A stretch of 64,000 nucleotides of DNA, taken from the NCBI GenBank assembly GCA_008360975.2, contig CM039196.1, positions 1 through 64,000 on the forward strand. Direction: 5' to 3'. The position numbers and the translations under genes are program-made. This document shows positions 1 to 14,890 of the stretch, piece by piece; position 1 is the stretch's first letter, and each line of letters opens with the position of its first letter. The stretch is from Lichenostomus cassidix. Its lineage: Eukaryota > Chordata > Aves > Passeriformes > Meliphagidae. The notes beneath the pieces were generated by a model. It ran no database searches, was not told the DNA's origin, and was given only the letters and a program-made list of their open reading frames with translations.

Positions 1-530
1 GCCACAAAAAAAACCACAAGTTATTTTAAAAACATTTTCTCCAAACCTTACTCCAAAAAAAATTCATCACCCAGCAAAAACTACATACTAAACAAAAATC
101 AAAATAAACTCTATTCCCATTTTTTCCATTCTTCTTCTTTTTCCTCATTTAAACCCCTTCTCTTCAATCTACTTTACCACCCAAACACCCAAAAAACCCA
201 AAAAACAACAAAACTCTCCAAAAAAACTCCACCCGGCCCCGGGTGGGGAACAAAAAAAAAAAAAAAACTATGTCTAAAAAAACCACTTTTTAATCAAATT
301 AAATAACTACCTTTCACCTTATTTTTTTCCCTTCCCCTGTGCCTTATAAAACACTCTGCGTAATTTTATTAAATAAATAATTTTTTCCTCACTTCCATCT
401 AAAAAATTCTATTAAAAAAAAAAAAAAATCAAAACCCTTCACTCTCAAAAAAAAAAAAAGTCGTATCATTAACCCAAAACACATTTATTGCCTGACCCCT
501 CCCTACCCTTTTTTTCTTGTTGCAGGACAC
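1..530. other. G-depleted, A/C/T-rich tract with a GC hairpin
   Basis: No gene is visible. The + strand is almost free of G: I count about 19 G in the first 480 bases, and seven of those sit in one short GC-rich hairpin at about 231-248, where CCACCCGG is followed by CCGGGTGG. C, A and T are all common, so this is a strand-specific skew and not simply AT-richness. Several homopolymer A runs occur (251-267, 414-428, 447-459). Base composition becomes ordinary from about 530 onward. Confidence 0.7.
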
Positions 531-2940
531 TACATTAATACCTGCAAAAAGAAAAAAAATGTACAAAGCCTTCCACATTGGGTAAATTCATATCATTTCT
601 TTCTCTTCTTTAGCAAGTCAAACCACCTGCTTCTACAGCACTTCTGAACTCCATTCTGACTCTTGGCAAGAAATTCTTACAGGCCTGACATTGTGGCTAC
701 AGCTCTGTGATGATCCACATGAAAGGTGGGTGCTTTCTTCAATTATCCTTTCTTCAATGCAACACTTCCTTTTTACTATCTATCTAGGTCATCTCCTTCA
801 TTTTCATAACTATATTCGGAAGGCACTGTGTACTGGGCATTGGCTATAAATGTCCACCCAGAAAGGTAGACAACAGCTTTGCTGCAAGGCAGATAATCTT
901 TTCAATATTCCTGCAAGAGCTGGCTTGCCTGCATTTGGTAATTATGGAACATGCTTCAGCTACTCCAGCAACAACACGTGAACAATTACTTCTTACTGAT
1001 AGTGAGGCTCAAAAACGACACTTCTGAAGCAACAATGCACTGCAGGCACCTGGACACATGTCCTTCCCTAAGGAAAAAAACTCAAAGTTCTTTCCCTCTT
1101 CCCTGGCTTGCTGGTACCAAGCACAGAAAACTGCACCTGAGGGAAGCTTGGAAGCCTGTATCCTCTGACATTTTGCACTTGGTTAGAGCTTTTTATTCAT
1201 ACCTCTGCATACTTCTGAAAATTACAGTTCCTCTTTTACAACATAGCCAATGTCCACACTTACCTAGAAAGAGGCACTGGGATTTGTTTTCTGTAAATTC
1301 ATTCAGGAAACTCCTTGTTCTTTCTCTCTCTCATTCATGGCCATAGTTTCCCAAAGAATATTTAGCAGGGCCTTTTTGCTTTGATACCCTCTATTTCATT
1401 TCCATTTCATTCTCTAAATTCTTTACATCCTGAAACTTTTTCTAGTACGTGGAAGAGCACAATCATAAATGGACAACAGAAAAATTGTAGAACTTCCCTA
1501 GCTCAAGATGTTGTTTTTCACTCTTTATCTATTTGCTCTTCCCATCTCATAGCTGCTCTTTTCCATGCACCTTTAAGGGCCTGCAATTCTCGCTGCTGCA
1601 GAAGGACTTGTGAACTGCTGCTTCCCTACCTTGCTCATCAGAGCACGGAATCCAGTCGGAAGGTGCCGGTCCGTCGGTGCGCAAACCACCAGGTATGGCT
1701 AGAAAGAGTAGAAAAAATTCATGAAATACTTTCCCTTGGAGAACAGTTCCCATGCTTTGCAAATCTGGGTTCATACATAGAAATATTGGCACATCAAGTC
1801 TGTATCAATTTCAATACAGAACAGCATCGCTTTAACTCTCGAAAACTGTAGGGTTTGGATGATGTTGCTACCACTTCCTACATTACAAATGTGGCTATGC
1901 GGATCTCAAAACTGGTACACATGTCTCCAAATATTTTATCTAATACTGGACAGTACATAAGGTGCTTAGCCTTATACCTGCACATGCTTATTACCTGTGT
2001 GTGAACTGCATACCACGTGCATAGCCTGCAGAAATACACTTCAGGATTAATTCTGATTCGTAAGGCTCCGTTACATGAGCCTTACAGAACTGCACCTCAT
2101 CAATTATCCATGTACAGAAATTTGGCTTTCAAATGGCCTAAGAGAAAAAAAAATAGTTTTGCTAACTCTTTCAATGCCATGTTAAAGGAATAACATATCT
2201 CATGTTGCTGAGGAAACAATAACTGCAATAACCATCCTCCCCTGTTCCCTGTATGACACACTGAAATATGGTTCAGAAGGTTTACTTCAACCACTGTAGG
2301 AAATGCCACACAGCTCACATGGTGGCCGATTCTCAGCCTCTGTTCCACTCACTGTACCATTCGGCCAGATCAGAGAGAAGCAAGTAAAAAAAAAAGTAAA
2401 AAAAGTTTAAAAAATATTATCCCAAAGGGAACATTTGCAGGTGGTGGTTGTACAATTGTTCCATCTGAACATGTGGGCAGCCCAGGCCACGCTTCTGATA
2501 GAACTGTTTGGTGTGGATGAACTCATGTCACTGTGACCAAAACATATGAGCAATACTTTGCTTCCCTTTATGCAATTAACACCTCTCTGGTCACCACAGT
2601 TCTGGTATTAGGTTAGCCTGAGATGCTGCAGTCTGACAGGGATCCTTCTCAAAACCTAGGGAGAAAACTCAGGTTTATATGTCAGCACCTTCACTGATGA
2701 CTTCTTTAGAATTCAGTGGCAAGACGTCATTCATCTATTTTTCTTATTTGCCACGTAAGCCACACAAGATATTTATTCTTTGAAATAGGACTCTGACATC
2801 TCTTCCCTGAAAAGGTTTTCATCATTGCTCATAAGTGTGATCTCCCTCCCTCTTCCTGCTGATCAAACCTGGCTCAAACCACTGCCTCTTTTCAACAGCT
2901 AGCACACACTGGGCACAACACACCCAGGAGTCCAAGGCCA
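531..2940. other. Non-coding AT-rich stretch with duplicated block A, copy 1
   Basis: No recognisable gene. The part at about 1360-1920 is homologous, in the same orientation, to about 4980-5500. Shared landmarks include the segment reading CTCTTCCCATCTCATA against CTCTTCCCATTTCACA, and the following run around GGGCCTGCAATT against GGACTGCAATT. The open frames here are short, start at arbitrary Met codons and match no protein family I know. Confidence 0.5.
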
Positions 2941-2949
2941 GCCTCAGGC

Positions 2950-4320
2950 CGACCTCCTAGCAGCTTCTGTCTGGCACAAATCCTGACATTTGCACAGCTT
3001 TACAATACAAAATCCCACATTTCCCCATGGGAACCTGGGGGCAACAATGGCTCTTTTCCATGGGAATGGCACATCACCACTCTCGTGTAAGATAGGCAGT
3101 TTGGAGGAATCCAAGTGCACACAGACCTCTGCTTCTTTACACCTTTCATCTGACAGGATTCCTGCAGCATGCACACTTTTCAGGTACAATACCACATTTG
3201 GAACCTGGCTGCAAACGGTGCCTCTTTTACACACGTAACAAACTTTTCCACCCTTCTGACCTGCACACCGTGGCAAATGCCTCCTCACATCGTAAAAACC
3301 ATCTGACAACACTTCATAACGAGCCTCAAGATACACTATATCGCCTCTGTGTTACCTCACTCCACTCAGTCAGGTTTTCTGGGAAAAAAAAAGGACTGTT
3401 TGAACCTTTTACAAACCTGCTGTGGGACTAAGAACACCAAGCTATACTGATAGCAATCATAACAATCCATTCTTTACATTCATTTCAATTATTCACTACC
3501 CACAACAACACCTGTAACTCCTGCTTCAGGACACCACATCTATAGAAATACTGCACTACTGATATTAAAGGAAGCGAGGACAATAACCACATCAAATCTC
3601 TTCTTCCCCCACAGCAATGACCGTGGCCACATCTCCTTTGCTCTACCTCGAGGACACGCTCTGGGGAGTACCTGACAGCATAAGAGCTCTCAAGAATCTT
3701 CACCACTGTCAAGACAGCCACTTGACCCCAATGAATGCAGGATCTCCTGCAAGGACTGATGCTGCCACCACTGCAGCTTCTCTGCTTCCACACGGGGAAC
3801 CCGGCAGAGCATGGCCACAACACCCTCTGCAAGCTGCAGCTGGCCACAGCAGGGCAGGGTGGAGAGGGAGGCAGCAGCACTTTGGGGAGGCGGCAAAGAA
3901 AAGCCAGGAAGAACGACCTCTGAGCCAGGACGAGGCCAAGGCCCGTGGTGGCAATGACAGCAGCAGTGGAACTCCCCAGCAGCAGTGGAACTCCCCAGGT
4001 AACGGGTGGCAGCAGATGCACCCACGATAATCAAAGCGCTCCGGCTAACTGACCTGGCGCCGGGTCACCCACGACCGTACCTCCAAACTGACCCACTGTC
4101 ACCACACCCTGCTGTCTAACTGCCCCAGCACCAGATCACCCACGGCCATACCTCCAAACTGACCGACTGTCACCACACCCTGCTGTGTTTGGCAGCCTGG
4201 TGCTTTTTTCCGTATCTAGAATGTGAAATTTCCAGACAAGGAGGTTGCTTTTTCAAAATTCTACATGTGAGGACGCTCCAGTGCTTTTCCTCAACATGAA
4301 AATTATGGCTTTTGGATTTT
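2950..4320. repeat. Low-copy duplicated block B, copy 1
   Basis: This segment is alignable in the same orientation to about 14893-16290, on the other side of the U2-like locus. Anchors include TTCAATTATTCACTACCCAC, CAGGACACCACATCT and CAATGACCGTGGCCACATCT, separated by diverged sequence with indels. Inside it, a sub-repeat containing ATCCCACATTT and CTGGCTG occurs twice about 180 bp apart. The two copies do not preserve a shared reading frame, so I treat this as a non-coding segmental duplication. An unrecognised repeat family is the main alternative. Confidence 0.7.
4043..4186. repeat. Tandem duplication of about 72 bp
   Basis: Two adjacent copies of about 72 bp are visible. Each contains TACCTCCAAACTGACC and ends CTGTCACCACACCCTGCTGT. 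They lie within duplicated block B. A separate 21-bp direct duplication (AGCAGCAGTGGAACTCCCC) lies just upstream at about 3959-4000. Confidence 0.8.
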
Positions 4321-4979
4321 CTTTATGCCCCTGACAATCTGCACACTTTTGGATTCTGGCTGCATCGGTCTGTGCGCTCTATGAAAAACATTCTACTGTT
4401 TGGACCTTCCGAGAAACGGAAATCTTCCACTATTTATGAAGCGATACAACGAAACCTTTTCTCAAAACTGTTTTCTTATTCCCACCCCCTAAACTTTTAT
4501 ATACTTACACTCATCTATTTACATTATATCTATTTGCACTTATTATAGAGAAAATACTTACAAATCCATTGACACTTACAGAACCTCTCCTAAGACACAA
4601 GCCACATATTTACAATGTTCAACTTGTATATTTTGACAATTCAATATCACGTCAGACTTCTACACTCTAACCTTACACATCTACTCATATCAAACCTCTC
4701 TTTACATTAATATCTAATATCTGATTAGACTTTGTACAGAACAGCTAATAGATCTATTTATTCTTTTTTTACATTTTGTCCTATATATCATCCTGCCTTA
4801 TAAGTTAAGCTCTTTAATTGGTTCATTTATATACACAACACTTGTGTTTGCACTTTAAAATCTTCTATCTGCTTTGGCCTTGCATGGACAAGCTTATGCA
4901 GGACACACATTACTCTTTCTCTCTCTGCCTCATCTGCATGCTGCCCCAAGGAAGATTTTACAATAGCATTTTCCTTTCC

Positions 4980-5500
4980 TTACCTACACTTTAGCTCCAT
5001 TTCATACCCTCCGTTATTCAAATCCTAATACTTTTCTTACTGCCTACAAGATCACTGTCATAAAGGAACAGCAGAAAAATGACAACACCTCCCTAGCTCA
5101 ACATTTCTTTTTCCTCTTTTCCTAATTGCTCTTCCCATTTCACATGTTGCCTTTTTAATGCATGTTTAAAGGACTGCAATTACCACTGCTCCAGAAGAAT
5201 TTGGGAAGTGCTGCTTCTCCCTCTGGCTCACCGTGGAACAAAATCCAGACGCGAGATGCCGCTCTGTAGCTGTAGAAAACCTCCGGGTATTCATACAAAC
5301 AATACACTAAATAAATGAAATTCTATGCCTTCAAAGAAATTCCCCATGTCTGTAAAATCTAACAAAATACATTAAAAAACTCTCCTGATCAAGTATGTAT
5401 CCATTTCAATGCTGAACAGACACACTTTGAACTTTTAAAAACTTCTGGCTTTGGTGCTACCCCTTCTTACATTACAAAAATTGCAAATTCTGACCTCAAA
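4980..5500. repeat. Duplicated block A, copy 2
   Basis: Homologous to about 1360-1920 in the same orientation, about 3.6 kb away. This suggests an old tandem duplication in which blocks A and B were parts of a longer unit. No coding function is apparent. Confidence 0.55.
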
Positions 5501-7430
5501 TCTGGGTTCTGGGGGATCACAGGCAACTATACCACGGCTGTCACCAGCCCAGATCCTACCTAGGCCCGTATGGGATATAGGTTCACCTTGGGGTTAGACA
5601 CAGCTGCCCTGGCAAAAATTCCTCCTGCAGGCACAAGATTACATGGCAGATGTTCTTAGGCACACTCTGAAAGCGGTGGGTTTGGATGGGACTCTGGGAT
5701 GTAGACGGCTGCATCACCAACTGCCCTCAATACCTCTCACTCATCCTTCCTTTCAGCTAACGGGCCACGGCCCCCCACCCGCTCCACAGCCCCCTACAGC
5801 CCTGTGGTGCCAAGTGCTGCCCTGGACAACACGACACCTGTCAGCTCTGGAGCCCAAATCCTGGTTTTGTAAGCCTGTGGTGGGACTCGGCAATAGGGAC
5901 TGGGGGCTGCACCTCTCCTGGGGTGACCTTCGGCTCCACTAACCTTGTGTGCTAACAATTCACATGGTAGCCAGGACTCTGCCCGTGGCCCATGGGTTCA
6001 CCCCCCATCCCGGTTAGGGCTCACTGCTCCATACCCCACCTGTCCTGGACATGCTCTCACTCCCCCAGCAGAGGCACTACCCTGGGGCTCTGCACCCTGT
6101 ACACATTTACCTGTATCTCTCTGACATCCCCTCCTATGCCACCGCCAGCAACCCGCCTTGGGACGGGGCTCTGTCTCCCACACCCTTCTCCCTTCTGCTG
6201 CTCCCCATGCCTCTCCCACAAATGTTTACTAATGCATTCTATTGCTGATCAAACAGAGAAATAATTAACACATTCACACTTTTCATTGGGAGTTTATTTA
6301 TTAAAGGAATCATGGGGAGTAATAAGCTAAAATAAATTGCATCAGCCTGCGCTTACCACGCAGCTTTTCCTTGCTTCATAAGGTGACGCTGAACTCTCTC
6401 AGCAGGACTAAAAAATCCAGCTCTCCAGTTTAATAAAAGCCACCTTAGACCCACTGGGCCCAAAACCGTAACAAATGGCACACTTCTTTTAGAGAGCTCT
6501 GCAACTACTCACGTTGGATACTGCTTTGGGGACTGCAACAATGACAGTCTTGCCATCCTGGCAAGCTCTGGCTCTGAACAGCCTGCTGCTGGCAGCTCCT
6601 GCAGCCAAAATTTATCCAGGCCGGTGATGATTGGCATCTTCAGCACCACCTTCATGCCACCCTAGGCAGCTGAACCGGGACACCCAGGACATTCCAGGCA
6701 GAGGTCCCTGCAGAACCATAAAAATCATTCAGTGCTTTGCAAAGCAAAGCTCAGAGGGATACAAGGCATTTTTCAGGAAAACCAACCAAAAACCCAGAAA
6801 TTTTAGTGACCGAAGAACACACTTTTTGGAATGCAACTGCAGCCCGGCTCGTACCGAACGCTACACCTATCCACACTTTTAAGGGTGTGGAAAATGCCTT
6901 CAAAAACAGCTTATCCCATGACCACCTCCCACTGACAGGATCCTTGGGGCAACTCTTATATTTTTGCATGTTCAACTGACAATAGGAAAACAGGACAGGT
7001 GTTTGGGATTTCTCTGAGCACAGTCTAGCAGCTCACAATACCCTTTGGGCTTTTACTTTGGTATTTTTATAACCTGGGGTTTCAATTATTTTCTGACCTG
7101 TGCTTGTCATGGGCCTGCAGCATCCTAGTCCAGCCTCTTGGCTTCATTTGCCTTCTTCCACCGCATTTATCCTAGCATGGAAACTGCTAAAAAGCACAAA
7201 ACAATGACACACGCTTCACACTTCAAACGCAAATAAATTACAATTACGAAAAATCTCGCTGCCACTTTTCTAAACTATTCATCACAGACCTTAGAAAAAG
7301 CAAAGGTGATCTGTCCCTGACAGGACCCCGCTGGGACACTGTGGTGGTTTTGATTGGCCCAAAACATCAGCGAAGTGTTTTTAACATCTAAGAGAAATTT
7401 GAGCCCCTCAGAAGCTGTTCTAGTAGGCCT
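5501..7430. other. Intergenic stretch, no feature recognised
   Basis: Short open frames only, none with recognisable domains, and no convincing splice-bounded exon. Base composition becomes more balanced than in the preceding AT-rich part. Confidence 0.4.
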
Positions 7431-7439
7431 AGGGAGGTG

Positions 7440-8640
7440 TCTGAGGGGTGGGGTGTAGCACAAAAATGGCTCCTGTGTGTCCGGAGTGCAAGTTCTGGAA
7501 GTTTTTACATCAAGTCCAGCAGAGCCAATCTCTGATGGCTCTGAAAGTAATAGACATGCTGCCGGCCAAGTTTGGGCCAATTAAAGGTGCTAGTTACGCC
7601 TCTGTGAAAACATATTTAAAAAAAAGTCAAAACAAAGCAGGCGCGCACTTCTTTCACTTTGTAGTTGGAGGAGGAGGAGGTGCAGGTGAAAATATGTGAG
7701 GGAGAACAGCATAGAAAGTGCCAAAGTCAGTGAAGAAGGGGGGAGAAAGAAGTGCTCCAGTGCTTCCGGCACCAGAGCTGAAACTTTCTGCTAGCCGTAA
7801 TAGAAACTATGGGGGAGTCAGAAATTCCTCCTGCAACCCATGAAATCTGTAAAGATGCAAAAATACACCCACAGCTCTCTCCAGAGGAGGAGGTAGATGC
7901 CTAAAAAAGACTGTAAACCAGTGGGAGTCTCATCTAAGAGTTAAAACTGCAAAAGGCCTTAACTGAGAGAGATAAGCCTTGCTCCTGGCATAGAAGCAGC
8001 CTAACCTCAGCTCGGGAGAGTCTGCACAGCACCTTATAGACAAAAAACTCATGTTACAACAAAAATTCGGGCGGGATGTTGCTCATGAGATTGGACGCAC
8101 ACCAAAGAAGTTCCTAGAGGACTGTCTCTCGTGAGAAGGACCCCTGGCTAAGTAGAAAACCTCTTTTCCTGATTAAACTAACCAGAAGACCCCTCAACCT
8201 GCCCCCTGTCTGTGTTGCTAGTTTGCAAAGAGAGAAAAAAGGGGGGGGGGTGAGTGCAGAGACTGCTTCTTAAGAGGGTAGGGGTGAGAGCAGAAAACTG
8301 TCTGAAGAGAGAGAAAAACAAGCAGAGATAAAGAGTATTTATAGTAGAAAAATTGTAGTAATGAGTAAATTTGAAAATCTGCTCTGTAAACTGAAAAGAG
8401 ACCCCACACCCTGCCCCCCCCCCCACCTGGCTCGTGGATTGTAGAGGAGGAAAGGGGGTGAATACTGTAAGTTCGTAAGAGGGAGGGAGGGGTGTGAACA
8501 AAATAATGTATAAAAATATATTTTTACCTTACATCTATCCTCCAATTCTGTTAAGTAATTAAACACTTTTTGCAACTTTAAGCTTAAAGCCTGTTTACCC
8601 TTTTTCGTGCGTCCTCCTGGCAAGGGTCCTGTCTCAAACC
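7440..8640. mobile_element. Probable degraded transposable-element remnant
   Basis: The layout recalls avian interspersed LTR-type repeats: a purine-rich run GAGGAGGAGGAGGTGCAGG near 7670, AAGTGCTCCAGTGCTTCCGG near 7750, a long purine-rich stretch with C/G homopolymers (8247-8257, 8412-8424), then an A/T-rich end near 8500-8590. No open frame or terminal repeats could be delimited. The assignment rests on general resemblance from memory and would need a repeat-library match. Confidence 0.25.
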
Positions 8641-8783
8641 CACAACAGACACCCGAGCAGGCTCAGCGGGGCGCGGGAAGGCAGGCGGCTTTGGGGACGA
8701 TTCACAGACACGCTGCCGCTGCCCGCAGGGACACAACCCGCACCGGCAGCTGCGGCTCCGCTCCCGCCCGCCCCCGCGGCCGC

Positions 8784-9223
8784 AATGCCTCCCCCGGCGC
8801 CTCCCCCGGCGCCTCCCCCGGCGCCTCCCCCGGCGCCTCCCCCGGCGCCTCCCCCGGCGCCTCCCCCGGCGCCTCCCCCGGCGCCTCCCCCGGCGCCTCC
8901 CCCGGCGCCTCCCCCCGCGCCTCCCCCGGCGCCTCCCCCGGCGCCTCCCCCGGCGCCTCCCCCGGCGCCTCCCCCGGCGCCTCCCCCGGCGCCTCCCCCG
9001 GCGCCTCCCCCGGCGCCTCCCCCGGCGCCTCCCCCGGCGCCTCCCCCGGCGCCTCCCCCGGCGCCTCCACCGGCGCCTCCCCCGGCGCCTCCCCCGGCGC
9101 CTCCCCCGGCGCCTCCCCCGGCGCCTCCCCCGGCGCCTCCCCCGGCGCCTCCCCCGGCGCCTCCCCCGGCGCCTCCCCCGGCGCCTCCCCCGGCGCCTCC
9201 CCCGGCGCCTCCCCCGGCGCCCC
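8784..9223. repeat. 12-bp GC-rich minisatellite, unit GGCGCCTCCCCC
   Basis: About 36 tandem copies of GGCGCCTCCCCC, almost perfectly homogeneous. I see two single-base variants: C for G near 8915, and CCTCCACC near 9065. The array ends about 255 bases upstream of U2-like copy 1. Because the unit is 12 bases and lacks stop codons, long open frames of Pro/Ala, Ala-Ser-Pro-Gly, Arg/Gly and Gly-Glu-Ala-Pro appear on both strands; these are artefacts. The minus strand has regular G5 runs separated by seven bases, so it fits the usual G-quadruplex pattern. Confidence 0.95.
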
Positions 9224-9479
9224 CTCTTTGCCGGGGCGGAACCCGAATGCGGACGGGAGGGAGAGCCAGGGGTGGGGCTGTGCGGATTCAACAGTCACAG
9301 CACAAACGGGCTGCTCGGAAGGGTGGCTGTGAGATTTGCGGGCTTCCAGGGCTCTGTGCTTGTGAGGCGCGGGCAGGGGAGCGCGGAATGCAGCGTGGGA
9401 GGAGCTCGGGAACAACGCGAGGGCGGTGGGCGAGTCAGGGGCGAGAGCGGCTGGGGACCGCCTTTGGAATTCCCTGTGT

Positions 9480-9666
9480 ATCGTTCCTCGCCTTTTTGGC
9501 TAAGATCAAGTGTAGTATCTATTCTTATCAGTTCAATATCTGATACGTCCTCGATGGGAGGACTTTATATTACAGGATTTTTGGGCTCGGGACTTGGATC
9601 CGGAGCTTGCTCCCTCCGCTCCGCGCGTGGTTCGGGTATTGCGGTGCCTCCGGGAACGGTGCACCC
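9480..9666 (+). ncRNA. U2 snRNA-like gene, copy 1 (best preserved)
   Basis: The 187-base segment aligns end to end with vertebrate U2 snRNA, the spliceosomal RNA that pairs with the intron branch site. It keeps ATCG at the 5' end, TTGGCTAAGATCAAGTGTAG, the branch-recognition GTAGTA (9512-9517), the stem IIa sequences TATCAG and CTGATA, the stem IIb arms GTCCTC and GAGGAC, an intact Sm site ATTTTTGG (9577-9584), the stem III tip GGAGCTTGCTCC, and a stem IV ending GGAACGGTGCACC. Differences from canonical U2, as I recall it, include weakened stem I pairing (TCGCC where GGCC pairs), loop IIb GATGG instead of TATCC, and many changes in stems III and IV. It could be a functional variant U2 or a young pseudogene. 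No clear proximal promoter element is visible upstream. Confidence 0.85.
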
Positions 9667-9684
9667 CGCCGGGGACCTCTGCTC

Positions 9685-9697
9685 GGTTAAAAACACA
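9685..9697 (+). terminator. Possible snRNA 3' box of copy 1
   Basis: GGTTAAAAACACA begins 19 bases after the RNA end. It resembles the vertebrate snRNA 3'-end formation signal (GTTT, short gap, AAA, then AGA) recognised by the Integrator complex, but lacks the final AGA. Copies 2 and 3 have an equivalent element at almost the same distance. Confidence 0.5.
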
Positions 9698-10440
9698 TTT
9701 AAACCCGAGTAAACGTGATTATCCGCAGTTAAGGGTAAACCGCAGCTCTCCGGACCCCTGAGAAGCTGCCAAAGCTCGGGCGGCTGTGATTCTCTCCTCC
9801 CTGCCCCTCGCAGGGTGCCGCGAAATGGCGGCGCTTCCCCCGTGCTTTTGCGTGCTATTTGGGTTAAACTCCGGGATCTCGCCGCTTTCTGAGGGGGTTT
9901 CCGATTTATATCAGGGTAATAGAGGACATTAATGTCATTTAAATGAATCTGGGAGGGGATTTGGGGCAGTTTTGTCACATAAACACGTGAAGGAGGTGAG
10001 CAGCGGGGCGGGGGAGCCGCACGGCTTTCTTTTTGCAGCTCTTTGACCGCGGATGTTTCTACGATGCAAATAAAAATCTCAATTCTTTTTAAAAACACCG
10101 ATTTTGTTTATTTGTAAAGTAAAAAAGGCGCAGAGCTTCATCACAGCCGCTTCGGCAGCGGCTGGGAGGTCCTGGGGTGACCTAGGAGATCCCGGGAGTC
10201 CCCAAAGCCGGAAAATTCCCTAAAGCCCCTCCCGACCTTCCCCGGTTTCCTCAGCAATTTTGGGGGCGATGTGACAATTTTGGGGGATTTTCGGGCATTC
10301 CCCGCGTCCTGCCCGGGATTTTCCTCCTCCCCTGCTCTTACCGCAGTCCCGAGGGTCCCTCTGCTGCCCCCGAAAAGCCTCAAAAAGGGGCAAGAAATCC
10401 CCGATGCCCGCTGTCCCGAACCCGCCCGGCAGAGCGGCGT
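9698..10440. repeat. snRNA spacer, copy 1 of a tandem duplication
   Basis: No gene is called. The spacer is homologous to 11592-12377 downstream of copy 2, so the duplicated unit includes the RNA gene, this spacer and the following octamer array. Shared landmarks are GGTGCCGCGA, a GATGCAAATAAA element (10063-10074), CCTAGGAGATCCCGGGAGTC and CAATTTTGGGGGATTTTCGG. The octamer at 10064-10071 overlaps AATAAA in both copies. Splice-acceptor-like pyrimidine tracts are present but no coding exon. Confidence 0.8.
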
Positions 10441-11152
10441 TGGCCCGAGCCGCGCCTCATGAGGGAATATGGAAATTAGAAGGGCATGGGCGGGGTTTGG
10501 GGGGCAGGAGTGGTTATGCAAATGAGAGAACGCCGGGAGGGAGTGGCTTCATGGGAGAAAGGGGCGGGGTTATGCTAAATAGATGCCCGCATGCACGAAC
10601 GGCATCTTGGGAGAAATGGGCGGGCTTATGCTAATTTAGATTACCTCATGCCCGAGGTGCATCCTGGGAGAAATGGGCGGGGTTATGCAAATCGGCATGA
10701 CCTCATGCCCGAGGTGCATCCTGGGAGAAATAGGCGGGGTTATGCAAATCGGCATGACCTCATGCCCGAGGTGCATCCTGGGAGAAATGGGCGGGGTTAT
10801 GCAAATCGGCATGACCTCATGCCCGAGGTGCATCCTGGGAGAAATGGGCGGGGTTATGCAAATCGGCATGACCTCATGCCCGAGGTGCATCCTGGGAGAA
10901 ATAGGCGGGGTTATGCAAATCGGCATGACCTCATGCCCGAATGGCATCCTGGGAGAAATGGGCGGGGTTATGCAAATCGGCATGACCTCATGCCCGAATG
11001 GCATCCTGGGAGAAATGGGCGGGGTTATGCAAATCGGCATGACCTCATGCCCGAGGTGCATCCTGGGAGAAATGGGCGGGGTTATGCAAATCGGCATGAC
11101 CTCATGCCCGAAGTGCATCCTGGGAGAAATAGGCGGGGCTATGCAAATCTAA
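10440..11152 (+). repeat. Tandem 57-bp snRNA-enhancer-like array 1
   Basis: About 12 units with a 56-57 bp period. The nine rightmost are near-identical, with perfect octamers ATGCAAAT at 10685 and every 57 bases to 11141. Leftward units decay: a perfect octamer at 10516, then ATGCTAAAT at 10572 and ATGCTAATT at 10628. Each unit contains GGGCGGGG (GC box), the octamer, the near-palindrome GGCATGACCTCATGCC, and TGCATCCTGGGAGAAAT, whose reverse complement matches the ZNF143/Staf SPH core CCCAGNATGC. The unit is 3 x 57/3 bases with no stop codon in several frames, so the long open frames across it are artefacts. The last octamer lies about 230 bases upstream of U2-like copy 2, the usual DSE distance. 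Confidence 0.93.
11126..11148 (+). promoter_or_regulatory. Terminal DSE-like unit of U2-like copy 2
   Basis: The last array unit ends with a GC box (AGGCGGGGC) and a perfect octamer at 11141-11148, about -231 to -224 relative to the copy 2 start. Vertebrate snRNA genes carry their DSE (octamer for Oct-1, GC box for Sp1, SPH for ZNF143) at about this distance. Position and content together support the DSE assignment. Confidence 0.7.
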
Positions 11153-11310
11153 GAACTCGCCGGCGAACGGCACCACGGGAAATTGAGTCGCGGTCACGAA
11201 TTTTTGGGGGATTTAAGGTTTAGCGCCCCAGCAGCGCGGGCGGAAAGGGGGGCAGGCGAGCGGGAAAGGGCCCGGGAAGAGCTGCGAAAGAGCTGGAGCG
11301 CGAAGAAATG

Positions 11311-11334
11311 GTCGCCGTGACTTGTGTGTGTGGA
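11311..11334 (+). promoter_or_regulatory. Proximal sequence element (PSE) of U2-like copy 2
   Basis: GCCGTGACTTGTGTGTGTGG lies at about -58 to -39 from the copy 2 start. It closely resembles the vertebrate U2 PSE as I remember it (CACCG, GACTTGAATGTGGAT). The PSE binds SNAPc to direct RNA polymerase II snRNA initiation. Position and sequence agree; the comparison is from memory. Confidence 0.65.
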
Positions 11335-11371
11335 TAGCGGGGTCCCGCCGGGAGCGCGGGAGGTGACCGGC

Positions 11372-11558
11372 GTCGGTTCTCGGCCTTTTGGCTGAAGTCA
11401 AGTGCGGTGTGTGGTGTTATCGGCTTAGTGCCTAATCCTTCCGCGATGAGAGCATCTGTCATTAATCTGATCTCACTATTTGAGAGTCGGACGGGGAGCT
11501 GGCTTCTTCCAGTCCGCGTATTGTCCCGGCATTGCGGTGCGTCCGCGCAGGGTGCACC
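11372..11558 (+). ncRNA. U2 snRNA-like copy 2, diverged (probable pseudogene)
   Basis: The segment starts GTCGGTTCTCGGCCTTTTGGCT and ends GGGTGCACC, so both ends of U2 are recognisable and the length (187) equals copy 1. Internally it has decayed: GTAGTA is replaced by GCGGTG (11404-11409), the stem IIa and IIb arms no longer match, and the Sm site is reduced to TATTTGAG (11477-11484). The stem IV region retains CATTGCGGTGC. The RNA could hardly act as canonical U2, yet PSE, DSE and 3' box remain recognisable, so transcription is possible. Confidence 0.75.
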
Positions 11559-11578
11559 CCCGTCAGGGACCTTTGCTT

Positions 11579-11591
11579 GGTTCAAAACAGA
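11579..11591 (+). terminator. snRNA 3' box of copy 2
   Basis: GGTTCAAAACAGA begins 21 bases after the copy 2 RNA end. It fits the vertebrate snRNA 3' box consensus well (GTTN, AAA, then AGA) and is the best match of the cluster. Confidence 0.65.
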
Positions 11592-12377
11592 TTAAAATCA
11601 GAAATAGTGGGAATTGTCGAAGCTGTCCCGCACTGTCGCCCACCCTTTTCTGTTGAAATAACGCTTCTCCGCTTCCCGAGCGGCTGCCAGGCTCGGGCGG
11701 CGGTGATTCTCTCCCTTCTCCCCTCGCAGGTGCCGCGAGACGGCGGCGCCTCCCGCGCGCACTTTTTTGGGTTAAACTCCGTGATTTCGCCGCTTTCCGG
11801 GTGAGTTTAAACCTTTTCTCAGGGAAATAAAGGATAATAATGCTGTTTAAATGAATCGGGGAGGGGATTTGGGCAGTTTTACCAAATAAATCCGTGAGGG
11901 AGGTGAGGAGCGGGGCGGGGAGCCGAGCGGGTCTCTTTTTTGCAGCTCTTCGATCGCGGGTGTTGCTACGATGCAAATAAAGATCTCGATTCTTTTTAAA
12001 AACACGGATTTTGTTTATTTGTGAGGTAAAAAAAGGTGCAAAACCTCAGCGGAGCCGCTTCGGCAGCGGCCGGGAGGTCCTGGGGGTGACCTAGGAGATC
12101 CCGGGAGTCCCCAAAGCCGGAAAATTCCCTGAAGCCCCCCCGGAACCTCCCCGGTTTCCTCAGCAATTTTGGGGGCGATGCGACAATTTTGGGGGATTTT
12201 CGGGCGTTCCCCGTGTCCTCCCCGGGATTTCCCCTCTCCCCTGCTCTTACCGCAGCCCCGAGGGTCCCTCTGCCGCCCCCGAAAAGCCCCAGAAAGGGGC
12301 GAGGGATCCCCCGACCCCCGCTGTCCCGAACCCGCCCGGCAGAGCGGGCCGGGCCCGAGCCGCGCCTCGTGAGGGAA
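11592..12377. repeat. snRNA spacer, copy 2 of a tandem duplication
   Basis: Homologous to the spacer after copy 1 (9698-10440) in the same order and orientation, including GATGCAAATAAA (11970-11981, with a perfect octamer at 11971-11978) and CTAGGAGATCCCGGGAGTCC. No coding gene; the open frames on either strand are GC-rich chance frames. Confidence 0.8.
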
Positions 12378-13530
12378 ATGCAAATGAGGAGGCTGTCGGC
12401 GGGGTTTGCGGCGGCGGCGGCTGGGGGGGAGGGGGGGAAGCGGGCGGGGGCGGGGTTATGCAAATCGGCATGACCTCATGCCCGAAGTGCATCCTGGGAG
12501 AAATGGGCGGGGTTATGCAAATCGGCATGACCTCATACCCAAGGTGCATCCTGGGAGAAATAGGCGGGGTTATGCAAATCGGCATGACCTCATGCCCGAA
12601 TGGCATCCTGGGAGAAATGGGCGGGGTTATGCAAATCGGCATGACCTCATACCCGAATGGCATCCTGGGAGAAATGGGCGGGGTTATGCAAATCGGCATG
12701 ACCTCATGCCCGAATGGAATCCTGGGAGAAATGGGCGGGGTTATGCAAATCGGCATGACCTCATGCCCGAAGTGCATCCTGGGAGAAATGGGCGGGGTTA
12801 TGCAAATCGGCATGACCTCATGCCCGAATGGAATCCTGGGAGAAATGGGCGGGGTTATGCAAATCGGCATGACCTCATGCCCGAAGTGCATCCTGGGAGA
12901 AATGGGCGGGGTTATGCAAATCGAGATGACCTCATGCCCGAATGGCATCCTGGGAGAAATAGGCGGGGTTATGCAAATCGGCATGACCTCATACCCAAGG
13001 TGCATCCTGGGAGAAATGGGCGGGGTTATGCAAATCGGCATGACCTCATACCCGAATGGCATCCTGGGAGAAATGGGCGGGGTTATGCAAATCGGCATGA
13101 CCTCATGCCCGAAGTGCATCCTGGGAGAAATGGGCGGGGTTATGCAAATCGGCATGACCTCATGCCCGAAGGGAATCCTGGGAGAAATGGGCGGGGTTAT
13201 GCAAATCGGCATGACCTCATGCCCGAAGTGCATCCTGGGAGAAATGGGCGGGGTTATGCAAATCGAGATGACCTCATGCCCGAATGGCATCCTGGGAGAA
13301 ATAGGCGGGGTTATGCAAATCATGGCATCCTGGGAGAAATGGGCGGGGTTATGCAAATCGGCATGACCTCATGCCCGAACGGCATCTTGGGGAAAATGGG
13401 CGGGGTTATGCAAACTAAATGAAACGCGGCGCGAATTGCAGTCTCGGTAAAGGGGCGGGGTCATGCAAATTAAAGCACAATCCCGCATGAATGGCGTCTG
13501 GGGAAACGAGGTCCGGCCATGCAAATTAGA
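12378..13530 (+). repeat. Tandem 57-bp snRNA-enhancer-like array 2
   Basis: Sixteen octamers spaced exactly 57 bases (12458 to 13313), then one after only 38 bases (13351). ATGCAAAC follows at 13408, and perfect octamers at 13463 and 13519 lie in diverged units. Another perfect octamer at 12378 precedes the core. Each unit repeats the GC box, octamer, near-palindrome and SPH-like motif of array 1. The junction after CATGCCC varies among GGTGC, AGTGC, ATGGC and ATGGA. The rare variant CGAGATGACC occurs at 12922 and 13264, 342 bases (six units) apart, which shows a higher-order repeat. Confidence 0.93.
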
Positions 13531-13950
13531 TCACTGCGCGCAGCGATCTACGCCGTCATGGCGGATGAAGGTCGGTCAGGCAAACTCGATTCCTTAGCGG
13601 CGCGAATGGCATCTTGAGAGCTTTATTGGGGGATTTGCAGAGTTTAGGCCTCGGTGCGCGGGAGGCGCGGGGGGGAAATGGGGTTTCAAGCCTTTCCTGA
13701 GTCCCCGAAAAAGACCTTTTTTCCATTTTTCCCCATTTATCTCCGCAGCTCCTCTCAGCCCCGGCTCGGCAAATCCAACCGCATGGTCCGAGCGGCCAAA
13801 AACCCGAGCGCGGCACCTTCGCCGTGCCTCTGCCGGCCTGTCCAGCCCCGCTGGCCGCGCCGAGAATCCATGAAAAAACTCCTGCAGCTCCCGAGCCTTT
13901 CCGCCTCTCCCGGAGCTCCCAGCGCCTGACGAGCTTCCCGCGCGGCCGGC
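13531..13950. other. CpG-rich spacer upstream of U2-like copy 3
   Basis: No gene called. It continues the degraded edge of array 2 (GCGCGAATGGCATCTTGAGAG near 13601) into unique GC-rich sequence. Open frames here have no recognisable family. Confidence 0.5.
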
Positions 13951-13973
13951 CGGAGCGGCGGGGTGATGCATAT
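13951..13973 (+). promoter_or_regulatory. Degenerate DSE-like element of U2-like copy 3
   Basis: GCGGCGGGGTGATGCATATT repeats the GC box plus octamer arrangement of the array unit with changes in the octamer (ATGCATAT). It lies about 190-205 bases upstream of copy 3. Support is positional; the octamer is not perfect. Confidence 0.4.
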
Positions 13974-14096
13974 TAGAGACACAGAGCACCGCCGTGATTT
14001 CGGGTCAGTGCTTCAGAAACATGTGCTGACAGCGCGGGAAAACAGCGGGATAGAGTCTCTAAATTGCTCGAAAGGAGGTGCGCGGCGGCGCGGGGG

Positions 14097-14121
14097 AGAC
14101 AGCGAGGTGTGTGTTTGTCGA
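14097..14121 (+). promoter_or_regulatory. Degenerate PSE region of U2-like copy 3
   Basis: The stretch containing GGTGTGTGTTTGTCGAGCGG aligns with the copy 2 promoter (GTGTGTGTGGATAGCGGGG), and both continue into CCGCCGGGAG. The PSE core is partly lost. The alignment shows common descent of the promoters of copies 2 and 3. Confidence 0.45.
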
Positions 14122-14157
14122 GCGGGGTGCCGCCGGGAGTGGGGGAAGGAGATTGTC

Positions 14158-14344
14158 ATCGCCGCTCGGCCGTTTGGCTAAGATCGAGTGTAGTGTTTAT
14201 AGTTATTTATTCGGTTTTGGGTACGTCTTTGACGAGAGGACTTTACGTTAAGCGGGTATTTGAGCTCGGGAGTTGGGTCCAAAGCTTGCTCCCTCGGCTC
14301 CGCACATCGTCCCGGTATTGGACTGCCTCCGGCAGCGGTGCATC
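14158..14344 (+). ncRNA. U2 snRNA-like copy 3, diverged
   Basis: Again 187 bases. It starts ATCGCCGCTCGGCCGTTTGG and keeps CTAAGATCGAGTGTAGTG, with one change in the branch-recognition motif (GTAGTG, 14190-14195). The stem IIa arms are changed, the Sm site is reduced to TATTTGAG (14257-14264), the stem III tip keeps AGCTTGCTCCCTC, and the stem IV region ends GCGGTGCATCC. Less decayed than copy 2, but the Sm site has only three consecutive U, so assembly into a normal snRNP is doubtful. Most likely a pseudogene or a non-canonical transcript. Confidence 0.75.
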
Positions 14345-14363
14345 CCCACCGGGGACCTTTCGA

Positions 14364-14377
14364 CTGCCAAACACAGA
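14364..14377 (+). terminator. Possible snRNA 3' box of copy 3
   Basis: CTGCCAAACACAGA begins about 20 bases after the copy 3 end. The AAA, three bases, then AGA part fits the 3' box; the GTTT part does not. Confidence 0.45.
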
Positions 14378-14440
14378 CTGAATGCATTCGGAAACACTAA
14401 ACATCACAAGTCTGTGGGTATTCCCCCCGCGAGTTCCTGG

Positions 14441-14524
14441 CAGGGGCTCGCTGTCATCCCGGAGCTCGCTCTCACGCCCGGTGTATCTTCCCGGCAATGC
14501 GGTGCCTCCGGGAACGGCGCACCC
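14441..14524 (+). pseudogene. U2 snRNA-like copy 4, 3' half only
   Basis: Begins near the position of the Sm site (CAGGGGCTCG) and covers stems III and IV: ATCCCGGAGCTCGCTC, then GCAATGCGGTGCCTCCGGGA and a GGCGCACC end. The stem IV part shares a 17-base identical run with copy 1. The 5' half with the branch-recognition sequence is missing. GAAAAAGCACAAGGAGA downstream (about 14547-14563) may be a degraded 3' box. The sequence after it shares GGTGCCGCGAA with the spacers of copies 1 and 2. Confidence 0.65.
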
Positions 14525-14564
14525 CGCACGGGGACATTACGGTAGTGAAAAAGCACAAGGAGAG

Positions 14565-14890
14565 AGCGGTTGCTTAACTGCTATGTATATTTGTCGCAAT
14601 ATCAGACGTTATTATGTGACAAAAGGTTTGTGGCGCTTCCGAAGGTGCCGCGAAGGCAGCGCTGTCGCTTGTGGATCCCGTCCGTCCTTCTGCCTCAGCG
14701 CCCGCAACATCTCGTGCCTTAGCCCCGCCTGTCCCAGGGGCTCTGTTATAGGGCGCTAATAACGGGGAGATTAATTAGTAGGTTACACTGAAAAGGGACA
14801 GCGCAAGTCTGCTTCTGCAGGTGCTACCGGAAATACCCGAATGGTGGAGAGAGCGAGGGTAAGTATGTCAATTCATAACCCACAGCCCTA
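14565..14890. other. Edge of the CpG-rich snRNA locus
   Basis: No gene. It keeps traces of the snRNA spacer (AAGGTGCCGCGAAGGCAGCG at about 14643) and then passes into AT-rich DNA. Confidence 0.4.

Follow-up and report, generated by a model that had tools for sequence, protein, structure and literature searches.

U2-like genes and enhancer arrays at the contig start

The DNA described here, called the window, comprises bases 1-64000 of contig CM039196.1 (C18 in our numbering) in assembly GCA_008360975.2 of the passerine bird Lichenostomus cassidix, and its first base is the contig start. It holds two tandem arrays of a 57-bp unit, both made up of a GC box, an octamer and a core like that of the SphI postoctamer homology (SPH) element, set among genes related to the U2 small nuclear RNA (snRNA) gene. 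The octamer, GC box and SPH core are assigned to Oct-1, Sp1 and ZNF143, respectively, and belong to the distal sequence element (DSE), the enhancer of vertebrate snRNA genes; the proximal sequence element (PSE) is assigned to SNAPc, and a 3' box completes the set of signals. Three U2-like genes, all on the plus strand, flank the arrays, in keeping with the claim of an earlier sequence-only reading that the DSE had been multiplied between such genes. The first (type I; 9480-9669) reaches 125.8 bits with the Rfam U2 model and has kept the Sm site and the branch-point sequence, with no DSE array before it and an unrecognisable PSE. The second (type II; 11372-11562) scores 41.2 bits, just below the 46-bit cut-off, with 54 of 187 positions changed and the Sm site lost. 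Its PSE-like element (11315-11330, plus strand; position -57) has one mismatch in 16 positions relative to an intact U2 gene, and alignment places a 3' box-like stretch downstream of the gene (11580-11602, plus strand) with the pattern AAARNNAGA, which we take to be the 3' box motif, at +223. The third (type III; 14158-14348), at 79.0 bits, has also lost its Sm site; it has a single, unmultiplied DSE-like element, GGCGGGGTGATGCATAT (13956-14012, plus strand), and an array lies some 640-700 bp upstream. A fragment from the 3' part of a fourth gene follows at 14459-14525 on the plus strand (nhmmer, 28.7 bits; repeat D7).

Tandem Repeats Finder places array 1 at 10552-11149 (10.5 copies, 93% match) and array 2 at 12448-13321 (15.3 copies, 94% match). 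When degenerate edge units are included, array 1 extends over about 10506-11187 on the plus strand, with approximately 12 units, both edges degenerate and a last octamer at 11141, which leaves 231 bp to the next gene. Array 2 extends over about 12448-13565 on the same strand and consists of 15 full units, one 38-bp deletion form (13303-13340), one further full unit and about three degenerate ones. The composite sequence GGGCGGGGTTATGCAAAT, which joins the GC box to the octamer, occurs 30 times in the window when up to two mismatches are allowed, always on the plus strand and always inside the two arrays, and was absent from 100 shuffles of the window. The sequence-only reading had put the arrays at about 30 units, each carrying the three strings. 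The arrays themselves are real, but the uniformity is not: among 32 units, GGGCGGGG is exact in 23, ATGCAAAT in 29 and CATCCTGGGAGA in 22, with all three exact in only 16, the other units mostly carrying AGGCGGGG, GGAATCCTGGG or ATGCTAA instead. The 24 intact units of the window share a mean identity of 94.7%, with 94.8% between the arrays versus 94.1% inside array 2. In seven decayed edge units, matching positions number 54/56 for the octamer, 47/56 for the GC box, 58/77 for the SPH core and 101/168 for the spacer, a count biased toward the octamer because these units were chosen by it. A palindrome, GGCATGACCTCATGCC, is present in 18 exact copies in the window, at 10694-10709 and in 17 other units.

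Origin of the array unit

The identity of the unit can be judged from the U2 genes of the same genome, which was searched over 1.10 Gb in 514 contigs and also yields at least 150 matches to the avian keratin family. A search with a 171-bp array query produced 197 matches, about three quarters of them listed, with the best 40 of 102 candidates scored; the U2 model search scored the best 46 of 58,126 candidates, and a search for promoter matches the best 40 of 51. Counts taken from these searches are lower bounds. Among the matches listed there are seven intact-looking U2 genes, all on contig C74 and all scoring 184-189 bits with the U2 model. Six of them have one DSE in the stretch examined, with a GC box at -237 to -240, the octamer ATGCAGAT at -227 to -230 and an SPH core, GCATCATGGGA, that is exact in five and differs by one base in the sixth. 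Four of these six promoters were covered to -318, which is sufficient to reveal a second 57-bp unit. In one, L051, an additional lone GC box stands at -364, and the 53 bp from the DSE's GC box to its SPH core align gaplessly with the array unit. The array unit thus has the motifs of the single DSE of the six genes, in the same order and at the same position (about -240 to -186). The octamer itself differs, being ATGCAAAT in the arrays and ATGCAGAT in the six single-DSE genes. From these alignments it is as good as shown that the 57-bp unit derives from the U2 DSE, and the identity proposed by the sequence-only reading is borne out by all seven intact genes.

The seventh intact gene, C74:199911-200101, carries not one unit but six in tandem, at a spacing of about 57 bp and with the last octamer-like site at -232. 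A pattern search found four of the six, and the two whose octamers are altered were recognised by eye; the count by Tandem Repeats Finder is 3.6-4.3 copies. Over 165 bp, the promoter of this gene and that of the second U2-like gene in the window share 90% identity, and the sequence farther upstream resembles window 10060-10500 by eye. Since an intact gene possesses both the six units and so similar a promoter, the array probably arose at a real U2 gene, from which the genes of the window would be descended; the direction of this descent is one that we infer.

Array matches, among those listed, occur on 20 contigs, mostly near contig ends, and a purely local oddity of the window is thereby ruled out. 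On 18 of the 20, a U2-like gene lies beside the array, and the remaining two, C21 and C26, have adjoining U2-type promoter matches. Of the 46 scored matches to the U2 model, 39 have diverged. The sequence-only reading had held that a unit found across the genome and away from snRNA genes would speak against its proposal; the unit is indeed genome-wide, but not away from U2 genes.

Kept promoters and variable RNA bodies

The three kinds of gene seen in the window recur elsewhere and differ in what they have kept. The internal, type II genes number 21 in 13 loci, and each has an array of 3-14 units upstream. With the gene start taken from the U2 model, the distance from the last octamer to that start is 230-232 bp in 20 of the 21 and 288 bp in one. 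Arrays at a greater distance from the gene, for the most part ahead of type III genes, have up to 19 units, and the overall range is 2-19 octamer-anchored units. All 21 type II genes have a PSE with 0-4 mismatches in 16 positions, as well as a 3' box core, which lies at +206 to +223. The encoded RNA is another matter, for the Sm site is present in none of the 21 and the branch-point sequence GTAGTA in two, which rules them out as working U2 genes. Seventeen exceed the 46-bit threshold of the Rfam U2 model (46.9-122.5 bits) and four, including the copy in the window, do not; the intact genes score 184-189 bits. The five type I genes are the mirror image of type II: the Sm site and branch-point sequence are kept in all five, the U2 promoter is unrecognisable (7/16 PSE mismatches) and the 3' box is found in one. 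Type III, known from four full copies, is without the Sm site, the branch-point sequence and the 3' box core, and has 4/16 PSE mismatches. This last figure is no proof of decay, because even between the intact genes of L051 and L052 the PSE differs at 5 of 16 positions. Between PSE and start, at about -45 to -26, lies the part of the L051 and L052 upstream regions that is best conserved relative to type II genes (85-90% identity). Taken together, it is likely from the sequence elements that many of the decayed, array-bearing U2 copies are still transcribed, into RNAs predicted to be nonfunctional.

Divergence among the type II genes is concentrated in the part that would be transcribed. Over 21 genes and 210 pairs, the RNA body differs by 27.6%, compared with 8.0% for the 5' flank and 3.8% for the 3' flank, and divergence climbs at -15 and drops at +210. 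This set includes three near-identical copies, which the 18-gene sets used for the helix test and in the analysis of array size and clades leave out. Recently separated copies have the same profile: of 17 pairs with body divergence below 8%, 13 show 4.8-6.9% in the body versus 0.4-2.8% in the flanks, and four are near-identical throughout. In three close type II clades, 56 of 663 body sites are variable versus 47 of 1746 flank sites, and the excess is significant singly in two of the three. The nine type I and III genes, which have no proximal array, show no significant body excess (19/441 versus 73/1145). The contrast between the two groups is significant (Fisher p=1.8e-6) and is carried by the 3' flank (p=1.6e-7).

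A variable body could in principle reflect selection for diversity, with type II genes yielding useful, diversified RNAs. The sharp variable window roughly matches the extent of the RNA, and slightly more helices are kept than in simulations: in 18 genes, 93 singly changed pairs remain paired against 80 +/- 7 simulated, and 12 doubly changed pairs against 8.5 +/- 2.7. However, the Sm site is lost in 21 of 21 genes, the branch point is altered in 19 of 21, and 2-10 of 42 canonical pairs are broken in each gene. As RNAs without an Sm site make selection for diversity improbable, we consider this explanation very unlikely.

The account that we favour, with moderate confidence and from sequence comparison, is that the arrays are multi-site U2 enhancers driving transcription of decayed U2 copies, and that this transcription mutates them. 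The DSE would first have been multiplied at a real U2 gene; its copies would then have moved among chromosome ends, with unequal exchange and gene conversion keeping them alike. The arrays would recruit Oct-1, Sp1 and perhaps ZNF143, leading to snRNA-type transcription of the downstream U2-like genes by RNA polymerase II. Continued transcription in the germline would then raise the mutation rate of bodies that no longer matter, making the stretch from -15 to +210 hypervariable. Two published papers describe human snRNA genes as hypermutable and suggest high transcription or R-loops as causes (PMC11338827, PMC12165836), and the type II pattern fits transcription-associated mutation of unconstrained bodies. 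Across 312 array units from 13 loci, called by overall similarity alone with up to 16 mismatches, columns differ from the consensus by 1.0% in the octamer, 3.0% in the GC box, 5.5% in the SPH core and 8.3% in the spacer, and the GC box and octamer together vary less than the spacer (p=0.004). Seven spacer columns, 26-32 (ACCTCAT), are about as constant as the octamer in these units.

Care must be taken with this account, as a number of results weigh against it. In the same 312 units, conservation of the SPH columns does not exceed that of the spacer (p=0.48). One study gives the make-up of the snRNA DSE as an octamer and a ZNF143 site, and reports ZNF143 to be undetectable on human RNU2 promoters (PMC3499247). 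The contrast between type II and types I and III, in the manner of a Hudson-Kreitman-Aguadé test, loses significance when only the 5' flank serves as reference (p=0.10), and the body excess in clade II-c, which has two genes, is not significant (p=0.16 and 0.089). Array size does not correlate with body divergence (rho 0.20, p=0.39), and for independent body changes, strand asymmetry is unconvincing, with A>G versus T>C at p=0.048 and five other tests null. Identity between units on different contigs (93.4%) comes close to that within contigs (94.4%; 288 of the 312 units), so homogenisation between chromosomes has played a part and any claim of selection is weakened. The type II 3' flank, which is no promoter, is as conserved as the promoter, and homogenisation alone could therefore account for the kept promoter.

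These last results fit the main rival account, neutral satellite growth, in which the DSE was multiplied by chance and carried about by subtelomeric exchange and gene conversion, homogenisation alone giving promoter and flanks their conserved look and heterology blocking conversion in the gene bodies, which would therefore diverge. Such a history would suit the similarity of units between contigs, the decayed edge units and the wide range of array sizes, the conservation of a 3' flank with no function so far known, and the presence of another minisatellite before the first U2-like gene. It sits less well with the low variation of octamer and GC-box columns relative to the spacer, with a body excess in two of three recently separated clades, where heterology is low, and with a variable window whose limits are those that a pre-snRNA would be expected to have. 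We regard neutral growth as quite possible, though not probable. One further reading we offer tentatively, as a possibility to keep in mind: the ends of this bird's chromosomes would carry a promoter-without-product system, in which many chromosomes retain a multiplied U2 enhancer and an intact snRNA promoter for the sake of transcription or factor binding itself, the body mutated by transcription serving as a record of promoter activity in the germline.

Chromosome ends and known systems

Where the copies lie can be summarised by taking one listed copy per contig for 27 contigs of known length above 1 Mb. Of these copies, 22 are within 68 kb of a contig end, at a median distance of 16 kb. Every one of them points inward (p=4.8e-7), as do all 13 on contigs with listed arrays (p=2.4e-4). 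This count leaves aside C15, C17, C18, C22 and C25, whose lengths were not available, and seven short contigs, and the intact U2 genes of C74 were not taken as the end copy of that contig. At least 13 of these 22 contigs have listed arrays. Among the listed matches, the remaining nine (C2, C3, C4, C5, C8, C9, C10, C16 and C69) showed just a U2-like gene, apart from C16, which also has a match to the type II promoter. The five interior copies are on C6, C27, C70, C76 and C105. Two of these belong to pairs of near-identical 830-bp U2-like segments, C68/C76 (829/830) and C105/C31 (830/830), and the pairs may be haplotype duplicates or misjoins. False expansion or duplication in the assembly could be suspected more widely from such near-identity, since some copies may be haplotypes or misplaced, yet the arrays occur with differing unit variants and sizes on 20 contigs and an intact U2 gene bears one of them, so that an artefact is scarcely credible as the explanation.

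In a survey of 100 of some 4,000 places with TTAGGG, telomeric repeats were seen close to the contig end and distal to the copies on two contigs, the distance being 65 kb from the U2-like gene on C9 and 45.5 kb from the array on C21. On the strength of these two contigs, a pericentromeric location is rejected as a general reading. On C5, the listed end repeat is at the end opposite the U2-like gene. In the window, the arrays and U2-like genes are contained in a contig-end segmental duplication (1-14879; blastn), whose main segments are about 80-99.5% identical to other contig ends among the matches listed. Its inner edge recurs in five other loci (L034, L036, L038, L040 and L047). The breakpoint at 14879 is sharp, and the ratio of observed to expected CpG falls there from 1.02 to 0.16. 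The ratio is 0.75-1.02 over 8.4-14.9 kb versus 0.16-0.29 around this block, which suggests low germline methylation of the block.

On C13, distal to the duplicated block, bases 1-1562 (L031:1-1562) hold about 27 copies of a different, 47-bp unit in two runs, with 26 sites of the form AAAATGGCG and 28 of the form CATGCGCA, which we take to be YY1-like and NRF1-like, respectively. NRF1 is a regulator of human telomere transcripts, and the repeats at human promoters of telomeric repeat-containing RNA (TERRA) are thought to hold subtelomeres open. By analogy, the arrays could be a transcription-factor sink or a chromatin element of chromosome ends, with the U2-like RNA incidental. A promoter kept while its RNA is dead would suit this, as would a CpG-rich island in CpG-poor surroundings, the TTAGGG repeats 45-65 kb outside the C9 gene and the C21 array, and the second array farther out on C13. 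We nevertheless find a sink or chromatin element unlikely, because the spacing of 230-232 bp in 20 of 21 genes indicates ordinary promoter use.

Other features of the window can be mentioned briefly. A 12-bp minisatellite, GCCTCCCCCGGC, with 36 copies at 99% match (8787-9221, plus strand; Tandem Repeats Finder), lies just upstream of where the DSE of the type I gene would be, and is also found on C13. The spacers at 10030-10402 and 11937-12311 are paralogous, 91-92% alike in their main parts, and by eye they contain AATAAA poly(A)-signal-like motifs on both strands and a GTAAGA splice-donor-like motif on the minus strand. Convergent transcripts from this paralogous spacer are possible, as are spliced plus- and minus-strand transcripts at about 9800-10450, judging by eye. 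Inside the 14879 breakpoint, at about 18200-39100 on the minus strand, is a matrix metalloproteinase gene, one exon of which was compared with solved structures and which is presumably MMP17-like.

No description of tandem DSE arrays was found in the titles and abstract openings of the open-licence papers listed, among which older snRNA papers are mostly missing. The value of the system is that it provides a natural dose series of one enhancer, from intact U2 genes with one unit, through one with six, to dead copies with 3-14, nearly all of them equally far from the start, so that the effect of enhancer dosage on snRNA promoters can be tested directly. If the bodies do reflect transcription-driven mutation, they would be a clean natural record of it, with promoters that are alike, products free of constraint, sharp edges, and promoter-poor paralogues to act as controls. 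More generally, promoter elements would here be travelling as subtelomeric repeats.

Parallels can be drawn with several known systems. In chicken and quail, a subtelomeric tandem repeat is transcribed to non-coding RNA, according to the opening of the abstract of one study (PMC4301066). That repeat is likewise avian and subtelomeric, is likened here by description, and has no snRNA enhancer mentioned in that opening. The vertebrate snRNA DSE, as noted above, matches the unit closely; it is single per gene there, whereas here it is in tandem, with 3-14 units before type II genes and up to 19 elsewhere. The human RNU2 macrosatellite consists of tandem U2 units of a few kb that undergo concerted evolution; here, in contrast, the end-located genes have decayed and it is the enhancer inside the unit that has been multiplied. 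Upstream promoter elements are arrayed before multicopy genes in the spacer enhancers of ribosomal RNA genes, such as the 60/81-bp repeats of Xenopus and the 140-bp repeats of mouse. Those serve RNA polymerase I and UBF, whereas the arrays described here belong to an snRNA-type RNA polymerase II promoter, lie near many contig ends and precede dead products. Finally, the human subtelomeric 61-29-37 repeats, which are TERRA promoters, are also CpG-rich tandem repeats near telomeres with transcription-factor sites, but the U2-like genes here face inward, away from the end.

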